From NCBI GenBank assembly GCA_029781595.1, contig JAKOWJ010000021.1, forward strand, positions 1 through 56,469: 56,469 nt of DNA. The letters are read 5' to 3'. This DNA comes from Pseudomonadota bacterium (GTDB taxonomy: Bacteria > Pseudomonadota > Gammaproteobacteria > Burkholderiales > Usitatibacteraceae). Below the pieces are notes generated by a model that had not been told where the DNA came from, searched no databases, and saw only the letters and a program-made list of their open reading frames with translations. The translations under genes and the position numbers were made by a program. Below, piece after piece: positions 20,833 to 56,469 of this stretch. Position 1 is the stretch's first letter; the number at the start of each line of letters is the position of its first letter.

Positions 20833-20862
20833 AACGGCGAGCCTCGGCTCGCCGTTTTTTTT
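20833..20862 (+). terminator. Intrinsic terminator after second receptor
   Basis: AACGGCGAGCC (20833-20843), TC, GGCTCGCCGTT (20846-20856) followed by T to 20862. The strong stem lies 20 bp past the receptor stop and isolates it from tonB. Confidence 0.93.
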
Positions 20863-21098
20863 GGGAGGCGCACCCCCTTCCGGGCATTCGTTACAAAAGC
20901 CTGCACGCGGCTGGAAATCGGCGCCTCCGTGGGCTAGAATTCCGGGCTTTCGAGGCGAATCCCCGGGGCTTCGCGTCCGGTCAGGATCGGGGATATCCCG
21001 TGTGTCGGCTTCGGCACTCGGCCTGCAAAACCGGCGGCCGCGGTGCCGCTGCGACCAGAAGGCGCTGACGGGCGCCATAGGGGGTGGAGGGTGGCTGC

Positions 21099-47906: not shown

Positions 47907-47976
47907 CGGGCGGCCACGCGGCGGCCGGCGCCCTCCCCGGTCGCCTTTCGATGATCGAAACGGTCCGAGGATCGAG

Positions 47977-48513
47977 ATGAAAGTAAGCCAGTACATGACG
48001 CGGCGCGTCGTGACCGTCGGGCCGGACACCGAGTTCCACCGGGCCTTCGACCTCATGCGCGGCCGTCGCATCCACCACCTGCCGGTGGTCGAGGGCGATC
48101 GCGTGGTCGGCATCGTCGCCGAGCGCGACGTGCTGCTCGCGGCCGCGAACTTCGGCTCGGCCCAGGTGCCCGTGGGCGAGATCATGCACGGCCCGCCCGT
48201 GTGCGTCTCGGAGGACGTCCAGCTGAAGGAGGCCGCCCGGCTGCTGGTGACCCACCACATCGGGAGCCTGCCCGTGCTGGACGCCGGCGGTCTCCTGGTC
48301 GGGATCATCACCGAGACCGACATCTTCAAGATCGCCGCCGGGATGCTCAACGCCCGGCCGGTGGCCAAGCGGACGGCGACGAAGGCTTCCGCCGGGGCAC
48401 CGGGGCGCAGCCGCCGCACCGCGTCCAAGGCGACGGCCGTGCGCAAGCGCGGCGCGGCGCTCGGGAAGCCGGCCGCGGGGAAGGTCCCGAAGAAGGTCTC
48501 GAAGGGCCGGTAG
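47977..48513 (+). CDS. CBS-domain protein with histone-H1-like basic tail
   Basis: A 178-residue protein. Two CBS repeats (MTRRVVTVGPDTEFHRAFDL then HHLPVVEGDRVVGIVAERDV; HGPPVCVSEDVQLKEAARLL then PVLDAGGLLVGIITETDIFK) form a typical adenosine-nucleotide-sensing module. From about residue 130 the protein becomes a Lys/Arg/Ala/Thr tail (KRTATKASAG...RRTASKATAVRKRGA), like bacterial histone H1-like proteins, suggesting nucleic-acid contact. APS pathway intermediates (AMP, ATP, APS) are plausible CBS ligands, which is inference. Confidence 0.85.
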   Translation: MKVSQYMTRRVVTVGPDTEFHRAFDLMRGRRIHHLPVVEGDRVVGIVAERDVLLAAANFGSAQVPVGEIMHGPPVCVSEDVQLKEAARLLVTHHIGSLPVLDAGGLLVGIITETDIFKIAAGMLNARPVAKRTATKASAGAPGRSRRTASKATAVRKRGAALGKPAAGKVPKKVSKGR

Positions 48514-48609
48514 CGGCGCCGATCCGGCCGGGCGCCACGGCGCCACGCGCCTGCAGCGGGCAGGGCGGACCGCCCGCGGGGCGGCCGGGAACTCGGGGAG
48601 GAGTCGACT

Positions 48610-49776
48610 GTGGGCACGCTGACACCGAAATTGCGCGCCATCGGCGTGCCGGTGAACGACTATTACGTCGACGAGTTCGTCGACATCCCGAAGTTCCGGT
48701 ACAACAAGATCCCGCTCCAGACCGTCACCAAGGACAAGGACGGCTACCGCCTGCGGCTGGACGAGAAGGATCACCCGGAGTACTTCATCCCGAGGAAGAA
48801 CGTCTCCGCCCCGAACTCGGGCGGCAACACGACGAACGTCTTCCTGAGCCTGGTGGCGCTCTATTCCGCCATGCAGGTGGACATCCAGTTCAAGATCATC
48901 CTGCCCGACGACCGCTCGTCGATCGCCCAGCAGGAGATCGACAACCACGTCTACTACGACGTGAACATCGTCCAGGTGCACACGCCCATCTGGGGCCCGC
49001 GCGAGTGCTACAACGGCAACGCGCACGGCCGCACCTACCTGCTCGTCTCGCCCCACCCGCCCATCGACACCCTGGACGCCGAGATCAAGACGCGGTTCCG
49101 GCGGGCCGACAACATCCCGATCATCACGCCGGGATACCTGAACAGCTACCTGGGCCCGCAGGTCATCGTGCCCACCGGCATCGGCTTCGAGACCATCAAG
49201 CCCCGCGTCGGCAACAACGACGTCATCGTCTGCCTGAACGACGACGAGCTGATCGAGAAGTTCGGCACGCAGATCTTCCCCGACGAGATGTCGAACGAGG
49301 TGCTGCTGAACATCACGGAGCGGTTCACCAAGAACCACAACCCGCACATGGACCCCAGCATGACCTTCGCGCTGGGCTTCTCCAACGGCGGCTCGCTCAC
49401 GTGCTACCAGTACCAGAACCGGCAGTACCTGGTGCACCTGCCGCTCGACGCGCAGGAATCCACCAGGATCGCCGGATCGTTCGACGACCCGCTCGTCGAC
49501 GCCGCCTTCAACGGCCTGTACCAGGTGGGGCGCGGGGATGCGCGCATCGCCGGGCACCTCTTCTACCCCTATTTCGTGGACGTCCTGGGCGACGGCCTCC
49601 TGGCGGCGTTCGCCGCCTCCGAGCTGGGGGCGGCCCTGTCGGCGCTGATGCACCACTCGAAGAAGTCGAACATCACGACCTTCAACCCGGATGCGCTGAA
49701 CAAGCTGGTCGTGAGGTGCATCGACAAGGTCGAGCGCGGGGAATTCAAGGGCGTGAACCTGACCGCCGCGGGATAG
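48610..49776 (+). CDS. Unknown 388-aa protein of apr/sat island
   Basis: A 388-residue soluble protein that I do not recognise. There is no signal peptide or membrane helix. Conserved-looking segments include MGTLTPKLRAIGVPVNDYYV, NSGGNTTNVFLSLVALYSAM, YNGNAHGRTYLLVSPHPPID and NHNPHMDPSMTFALGFSNGG. Asp/Asn/His-rich loops would suit a nucleotide- or metal-binding role but no known motif is matched. GTG 48610 has a strong GGGAGGAG site 7-8 nt upstream. It sits between the CBS gene and the LysR gene, probably in the apr transcription unit; a hairpin follows. Confidence 0.7.
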   Translation: MGTLTPKLRAIGVPVNDYYVDEFVDIPKFRYNKIPLQTVTKDKDGYRLRLDEKDHPEYFIPRKNVSAPNSGGNTTNVFLSLVALYSAMQVDIQFKIILPDDRSSIAQQEIDNHVYYDVNIVQVHTPIWGPRECYNGNAHGRTYLLVSPHPPIDTLDAEIKTRFRRADNIPIITPGYLNSYLGPQVIVPTGIGFETIKPRVGNNDVIVCLNDDELIEKFGTQIFPDEMSNEVLLNITERFTKNHNPHMDPSMTFALGFSNGGSLTCYQYQNRQYLVHLPLDAQESTRIAGSFDDPLVDAAFNGLYQVGRGDARIAGHLFYPYFVDVLGDGLLAAFAASELGAALSALMHHSKKSNITTFNPDALNKLVVRCIDKVERGEFKGVNLTAAG

Positions 49777-49780
49777 CCGG

Positions 49781-49809
49781 CGCCATCCCCCGCTCGCGGG
49801 CGGATGGCG
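49781..49809 (+). terminator. Hairpin ending the apr-side gene cluster
   Basis: CGCCATCC-CCCGC (49781-49793), TC, GCGGG (49796-49800), one bulged C, GGATGGCG (49802-49809). The 13-bp stem is strong, but no T-run follows, so it is a probable 3'-end structure rather than a proven terminator. Confidence 0.5.
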
Positions 49810-49887
49810 GGAAGCCGGGCCGCGCGCGCGCCCTCGCCCTCCGCTCTTTTATGCTTGAATAGGTCCCTTGAATCCGGGGATAGGGCC

Positions 49888-54054: not shown

Positions 54055-55236
54055 GTGACCACGAAGAGGAACGGCCCCCATACTGCCGGCTGTACCCCGG
54101 GCCCCGCGAGGGACCTCCCGGGCGATCCTTGCGGCGTCGCCGCGAGCGAGGATCTCCACGCCCTCCTGGACAGGGGCCTGAAGGCCATCGTGGCCCTCAC
54201 CGGCGCCCGAGGCGGCGCCATCCGCATGGTCCCCGTGGCGGGCGGCGCCATGCGCCTGGTCTGCGCCACGGGCCTGCCCGCCGACAGCCTGGCGAGCGAG
54301 AGCCTGGTGGACGCCGGCTGCGGCATGTGCGGCGCCGCGCTGCGCACGGACGACGTGCAGGTCGAGGAGTCCTCGCCGCCCTGCGCCCGGCGCATGGGCG
54401 TGTTCGCCACCGGGCCCGAGACCGGCCCCATGCTCGCCGTGCCCCTGCACTGCCGCGGCACCACCATCGGCGTGTTCAACCTCTTCTTCGGAAAGGGCGC
54501 CCGCCTGCCGTCGGACGTGATGGGGCTCATCGGGCCGGTGTCGGAGATGCTGGACCTGGTGCTGGACAAGGCCCTTTCCGAGCAGGAGCGCCTCCAGTCC
54601 ACGCTGTCGGCCGAGCGCCAGATGTTCGCGAGCGAGATCCACGACTCCCTCGCGCAGGGCCTCGCCTTCATGCGCATGCGCATGAGCCTGCTGCAGGACG
54701 CGATCCGTGCCGGCAACGGCGCCGCCTCGCTCAAGTACTTCCGGGACATCCAGTCCTCGCTGGGCGAGGCCCATGCGGGGCTGCGCCAGCTCATCACCCA
54801 CTTCCGCCAGCCGCTGGACCGGCACGGCCTCCTGCACGCCCTCGAGACCACCGCGCGCACGTTCCACGACCGCACGGGCGTGTCGCTGCGCATCGAGAAC
54901 CGGGTCCGGGACCTGAAGCTGCCCCCGGAGCAGGAGGCGCAGGTCTACCAGATCGTCCGCGAGGCCCTGGCCAACGTGATCAAGCACGCCGGCGCCAGCA
55001 GCGCGCGGGTGGTGCTGGACCGCTCCGCGGGCTCCCTGCGCGTGAGCGTCGAGGACGACGGGACCGGCGCGCGCCTCGTCCGGGGCCGGCGCGGCGCGGT
55101 GGCCGGCGAGCACTACGGCCTGGAGATCATGCGGGAGCGGGCCCGGCGCATCGGCGGGCGGCTGCGCATCGTGAGCGCGCCCGGCAAGGGCACGCAGGTG
55201 CGCCTGTCGATCCCGCAGGCGAGTGCGGCGGAGTGA
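54055..55236 (+). CDS. Cytoplasmic GAF-domain histidine kinase, NarX-like
   Basis: A 393-residue soluble kinase lacking transmembrane helices. Order: GAF domain (about 25-175, with Cys in AGCGMCGAALR and PPCARRMG), HisKA_3 with phospho-acceptor His196 (EIHDSLAQGLAFM), then HATPase (REALANVIKHAGA; SVEDDGTGARLV; GKGTQVRLSI). Cysteines in the GAF may bind a redox cofactor, which is inference. GTG 54055 (after GGAGGGGAAG) is preferred to a TTG at 53983. It pairs with the regulator 7 bp downstream. Confidence 0.9.
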   Translation: MTTKRNGPHTAGCTPGPARDLPGDPCGVAASEDLHALLDRGLKAIVALTGARGGAIRMVPVAGGAMRLVCATGLPADSLASESLVDAGCGMCGAALRTDDVQVEESSPPCARRMGVFATGPETGPMLAVPLHCRGTTIGVFNLFFGKGARLPSDVMGLIGPVSEMLDLVLDKALSEQERLQSTLSAERQMFASEIHDSLAQGLAFMRMRMSLLQDAIRAGNGAASLKYFRDIQSSLGEAHAGLRQLITHFRQPLDRHGLLHALETTARTFHDRTGVSLRIENRVRDLKLPPEQEAQVYQIVREALANVIKHAGASSARVVLDRSAGSLRVSVEDDGTGARLVRGRRGAVAGEHYGLEIMRERARRIGGRLRIVSAPGKGTQVRLSIPQASAAE

Positions 55237-55243
55237 GCCGGCG

Positions 55244-55897
55244 ATGAGCGAGAACCCCATCCGCGTCGTCCTCATCGACGACCACGGCCTGTGCCGGCGC
55301 GGGCTCGCGGAGCTGCTGGAGCACCGGGCGGGCATCCGGGTCGTGGGGGCCACGGGCGAGCCGGACGCGGCCCTGCGGCTGCTGCGCGAACTCAAGCCGG
55401 ACCTGCTCATCATGGACCTGCGCATGCCCGCCATGCACGGCTTCTCGCTGCTCAAGAAGATCCGCGAGGAGGGCATGGAGACCCCGGTCGTCATCCTCAC
55501 GATGTGCGACTCGCACGACGACCTGGCCAACGCGCTTCGCGCGGGGGTGCGCGGCTACCTGCTCAAGGACATGGACCCGGACGACGTCGTCGACTCGATC
55601 CGCCGGGCCCTGAAGGGCGAGCTGGTCGTGGCGCCCGCGATGTCGACCAAGCTCACGCACCTGCTGGGCGCGCCGTCGGGCCGCGAGGAGGGCCGCGCGC
55701 TCACCGAGCGCGAGCTCGAGATCCTGGGCTACATCGCCCAGGGCATGAGCAACAAGGGCATCGCCAAGGCGCTCGACATCAGCCACGACACCGTGAAGCT
55801 GCACGTGCGCCACATCCTGTCGAAGCTGAACCTCAGCTCCCGCGTCGAGGCCGCGGTGTACGCCGTCGGCCGCAAGTTCTCCGGCTCGGCCCACTAG
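55244..55897 (+). CDS. NarL/FixJ-family response regulator
   Basis: A 217-residue regulator with receiver domain (acidic IDDH at about 11-14, phospho-acceptor Asp58 in MDLRMP, GYLLKD) and a C-terminal LuxR-type HTH (LTERELEILGYIAQGMSNKG then VKLHVRHILSKLNL). It is the partner of the adjacent kinase. The paired direct repeats near 53875-53914 are candidate sites. Confidence 0.94.
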   Translation: MSENPIRVVLIDDHGLCRRGLAELLEHRAGIRVVGATGEPDAALRLLRELKPDLLIMDLRMPAMHGFSLLKKIREEGMETPVVILTMCDSHDDLANALRAGVRGYLLKDMDPDDVVDSIRRALKGELVVAPAMSTKLTHLLGAPSGREEGRALTERELEILGYIAQGMSNKGIAKALDISHDTVKLHVRHILSKLNLSSRVEAAVYAVGRKFSGSAH

Positions 55898-55904
55898 GCG
55901 CCGG

Positions 55905-56469
55905 TCAGCCGGCCGCCGCCTCCCGGCGGTGGGCCTCGAACCACTCCAGCCGGTCGCGCAGCCGCACGACCTCGCCCACGATGATGAGCGTCGGGGGCTT
56001 CAGTCCCGCCGCGTGCGCCTTGTCGGCGAGCGTGGCGAGATCCGCCGTGACCACGCGCTGGGCCTCGGTGGTCGCCTGCTGCACCATCGCCGCGGGCGTG
56101 GTCGGGGCGAGACCGTGGGCGACCAGCTCGCGGCACAGCTCGTCGAGGTTCTGGAACCCCATGTAGATCACCACCGTCTGGCGGGGCCGGACGATGGCCG
56201 CCCAGTCGACGTTGAGCTCGCCCTCGTAGATGCCCACCTCGGGCATGCCGATGTGGGCCTTGTCGGCAAAGCCGCGCACCGTCTCCACCAGCCAGGCTTC
56301 GTCGACATTGCGCGGCGTCTCGATGACCTGCACGCCCATGCTCCATTTGGCCGCGGTCTTGCTCATCAGCAGCGACACGATGGCGCCCGAGAAGCCGACG
56401 ACCAGCGAGAAGATCATCAGCTGCACGGTGTTGGTGCCGGTGTAGCGGCCCACGCCCAGCAGGCTGGTG
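55905..56469 (-). CDS. In-frame HtpX N-terminus / SUMT (CobA/CysG) C-terminus chimera, partial
   Basis: The frame is open to the window end, so the gene begins outside; the GTG at 56453 is internal. The N-terminal part, IFSLVVGFSGAIVSLLMSKT then KWSMGVQVIETPRN and HIGMPEVGIYEGE, matches the membrane and early cytoplasmic part of HtpX protease, but the HEXXH active site never appears. From VDWAAIVRPRQTVVIYMG to TLIIVGEVVRLRDRLEWF it matches the C-terminus of uroporphyrinogen-III C-methyltransferase (as in CysG). The switch lies at about 56211-56226. Neither half can be a normal enzyme: either a deletion-born fusion or a misassembly. Confidence 0.85.
   Translation of the reverse strand, partial: TSLLGVGRYTGTNTVQLMIFSLVVGFSGAIVSLLMSKTAAKWSMGVQVIETPRNVDEAWLVETVRGFADKAHIGMPEVGIYEGELNVDWAAIVRPRQTVVIYMGFQNLDELCRELVAHGLAPTTPAAMVQQATTEAQRVVTADLATLADKAHAAGLKPPTLIIVGEVVRLRDRLEWFEAHRREAAAG

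Follow-up and report, generated by a model that had tools for sequence, protein, structure and literature searches.

The right end of this stretch of DNA carries a reading frame that begins as the protease HtpX and ends as SUMT, which a preliminary description had taken for HtpX running into the C-terminus of uroporphyrinogen-III methyltransferase. The question is whether this frame is a gene fusion, the trace of a deletion or a product of assembly. The window (the whole stretch analyzed, 56,469 bases) is the entire contig C150 of a draft genome (G000:C150:1-56469), and its edge is the contig end. The genome assembly comprises 3.79 Mb in 374 contigs and is 88% complete. The evidence points to a misassembled, chimeric contig end and to neither a gene fusion nor a deletion, a reading to which we assign a probability of roughly 95%.

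The frame lies on the minus strand from 56468 to 55905, encodes 187 amino acids and is open at its 5' end at the right edge of the window. NCBIfam profiles matched both families in this one frame, which bears out the order HtpX, then SUMT, read from the letters. Residues 2-104 align with positions 23-124 of the HtpX profile NF003965 (E = 2.3e-28), and this part continues in frame into a C-terminal SUMT part, residues 84-171, that aligns with positions 150-237 of TIGR01469 (cobA_cysG_Cterm, E = 1.4e-22). A Pfam search returned TP_methylase (148-211, 3e-10). The HEXXH zinc site of HtpX is absent from the frame, and the frame alone, which reaches only profile positions 150-237, lacks the N-terminal half of SUMT and so a full TP_methylase domain; both absences had been noted beforehand. 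The join was found at ~56210-56225, in agreement with the place first proposed (~56211-56226), and the HtpX part accounts for merely the terminal 244 bases of the contig. The features are as follows.

55223..55897, plus strand: response regulator with a LuxR-type C-terminus, the convergent neighbor of SUMT (by eye from the translation)
55905..56225, minus strand: genuine C-terminal part of the genome's SUMT (cobA), with its stop codon (profile and congener matches)
56210..56225, minus strand: join zone, a short string fitting both genes (matches to htpX extend through 56210, those to SUMT begin at 56225)
56226..56469, minus strand: foreign htpX tail, HtpX profile from ~23, truncated at its 5' end by the edge of the contig (NCBIfam match)
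C282 13743-14175, 3' end of contig C282: first 433 bases of SUMT (congener comparison)

Comparison with seven congeners separates the two parts of the frame. The window is collinear with six of them from ~55002 to 56225 at a DNA identity of 83-85%. The congener match begins at 56225 in six of the seven and 16 bases further in in the remaining one (G006), in all cases without the htpX part, and no match to the htpX part beside SUMT was obtained in any of the seven. The SUMT part resembles SUMT/CobA (TIGR01469) both in its profile match and in its identity to six congeners from 56225 down. It differs in that its N-terminal part is located on another contig, C282, and in its odd start, which is the misjoined htpX piece.

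The genome contains exactly two SUMT matches. One is the window part and the other is C282:13755-14174 (profile positions 1-140), which reaches the end of that contig (14175 bp). A search of the genome's contigs found no second SUMT copy. The preliminary description had suggested looking for intact htpX and SUMT elsewhere in the genome; an intact htpX is present on contig C72 (416.9 bits), but for SUMT the second match is only the N-terminal part on C282. The last base of C282 and window base 56225 belong to one continuous gene in six congeners, with a gap of exactly 17 bp in each. These 17 bp, which in the congeners code for a portion of the SUMT sequence VTGNTQ, are missing from both contigs. 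Joining the C282 end, 17 unknown bases and the window part gives an in-frame, full-length SUMT that matches the congener proteins and has the full SUMT domain. The same order extends over the whole contigs. A single congener contig (G002:C67, 2283-72844) spans C282 (3-14175) and the window from 56225 down to 73, collinear, adjacent and 17 bp apart, with a few indels and with only the terminal 244 bases left out on the right. The join lies 244 bases from the contig end, and the true continuation of the SUMT part is the end of C282. By comparison with the six congeners, C150 and C282 would be genome neighbors in head-to-head orientation, separated by 17 bp that neither contig contains. The result allows C150 to be placed next to C282 and indicates that the organism probably has an intact SUMT gene.

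The main reading offered earlier was a chromosomal deletion between neighboring htpX and SUMT genes that would leave a membrane-tethered SUMT C-domain. An in-frame sequence of HtpX followed by SUMT is what such an event would produce, but the genome's own htpX is intact and did not give rise to the tail, and the N-terminal half of SUMT sits on C282, 17 bp short of the join. Each of the seven congeners carries a single intact SUMT gene and, on a different contig, an intact htpX, so that the two genes are not neighbors in the congeners examined. The comparison of this locus in close relatives, also suggested at the outset, turned up an intact SUMT with a separate htpX in 7/7 and the HtpX-SUMT join in none. 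No continuation into SUMT was found among 93 htpX loci read through, and the sole locus of the 93 that lacks HEXXH is truncated close to the end of its contig. Four pattern hits for HtpX-SUMT fusions arose among the 93 htpX frames, and the two inspected were chance strings unrelated to SUMT. The HtpX piece also groups with another family. The deletion is not supported, and its probability is close to nil.

The origin of the htpX tail was examined by sequence identity and a tree. The tail shares 72% DNA and 56% amino acid identity with the genome's own htpX, which rules out that gene as its source. Identity rises to 90% (DNA) and 85% (amino acid) with htpX of Burkholderiales bacterium SCN18_13_7_16_R1_B_69_20 (L040); DNA identity is 88% to two further loci (L041 and L042) and 85-86% to those of Rubrivivax sp. 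SJ498 and Ottowia beijingensis (L043 and L044). In the htpX tree the tail groups with L040 in an Ottowia-like group, and the own htpX groups with those of the congeners; the tree rests on ~89 columns, and support at the fork of the tail and L040 is modest (92/87). The two parts of the frame would therefore not come from the same genome, as the htpX part groups with neither the own nor the congener htpX. The tail resembles HtpX (NF003965) from residue 2, at profile position 23, and its amino acid identity to the HtpX proteins of Ottowia-like Burkholderiales reaches 85%. Unlike a normal HtpX, it is truncated on both sides, by the contig edge and by the join, lacks HEXXH and is not the genome's own. 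The remainder of the tail's htpX was not found in the genome. Besides the intact gene on C72, the other matches to the family there comprise a distant paralogue of full length on C316 and some weak, partial hits. Its affinity to Ottowia-like htpX suggests that the tail probably derived from another community member.

A foreign tail could also have entered through a real rearrangement in the strain or a subpopulation, in which a horizontally acquired htpX piece inserted into or recombined with SUMT and split it. In favor of this, the join keeps the reading frame, the consensus would look the same if the contig really carried a foreign htpX piece, and mixed populations can cause contig breaks. 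Against it, C282 halts exactly 17 bp before the join, with no sequence from the far side of a rearrangement; the contig edge cuts the tail off after 244 bases; and the genome contains no other part of its htpX. A rearrangement would also mean that SUMT, with no second copy, was wholly lost, yet an apparent cobalamin gene is kept directly upstream of it on C282. Judged by eye from its translation, this upstream gene looks like a cobyrinate diamide synthase. A real rearrangement is very unlikely on these grounds. The specific version in which a minority of cells carries an htpX fragment of another genus, recombined into cobA at the short shared string and disrupting SUMT, is highly improbable.

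The chimeric contig end accounts for the split gene, the synteny and the foreign affinity of the tail, and the alternative of an assembly error, raised in the preliminary description, is supported by the split SUMT, the 17-bp congener spacing and the foreign tail. One ordinary SUMT gene (cobA) would have been broken by the assembly, with its first 433 bases ending C282 and the rest ending C150. The last 244 bases of C150 would come from the htpX of a different, Ottowia-like burkholderial bacterium, and the fusion protein would not be made.

The sequence at the join is consistent with this course. In the zone 56210-56225 the window reads GAGGGCGAGCTCAACG, htpX relatives read GAGGGCGAGCCCAACG and congener SUMT genes read GACGGCGAGTTGAACG or similar. 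Compared across the join, htpX relatives have GAGGGCGAGCCCAACGCC, the congener SUMT (L033) has GACGGCGAGTTGAACGTC or variants and the window has GAGGGCGAGCTCAACGTC. A short shared string had been claimed here; one of ~10-16 bases resembles both genes, and this fit makes a chimeric read or a false overlap at the join plausible. The string is shorter than the k-mers usual in assemblers. A graph error alone is therefore not the obvious route, and a chimeric read or library artefact must be invoked. Most likely, either a chimeric read or a short false overlap at this string joined the foreign tail to the contig. A join stays in frame with a chance of 1 in 3, which was counted against the chimera. 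Chimeric contig ends occur in draft and metagenome-assembled genomes. The present case is like them in having a short foreign tail at the terminus and a gene split over two contigs of the same genome; nothing is notably unlike them, and the join here happens to stay in frame. Its significance is that of a quality warning only: the last few hundred bases of draft contigs can hold foreign DNA that mimics a convincing in-frame fusion.

Three other differences from the congeners were recorded in the window. At its left end (1-83), congener matches start only at 73-93, and the same frame runs on to base 1 with poor conservation. A second chimera is not evident there, and the segment looks like a variable linker. 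At 20862-20991, congener G002 has ~2.1 kb extra (C67 23073-25351). A stretch of ~1.9 kb (47907-49813) is absent from G002:C67 and from G001, G004, G006 and G007. It is present in G003 and G005 (86%) and holds a CBS-domain-like frame (47977-48513) and a 388-aa frame (48610-49776).
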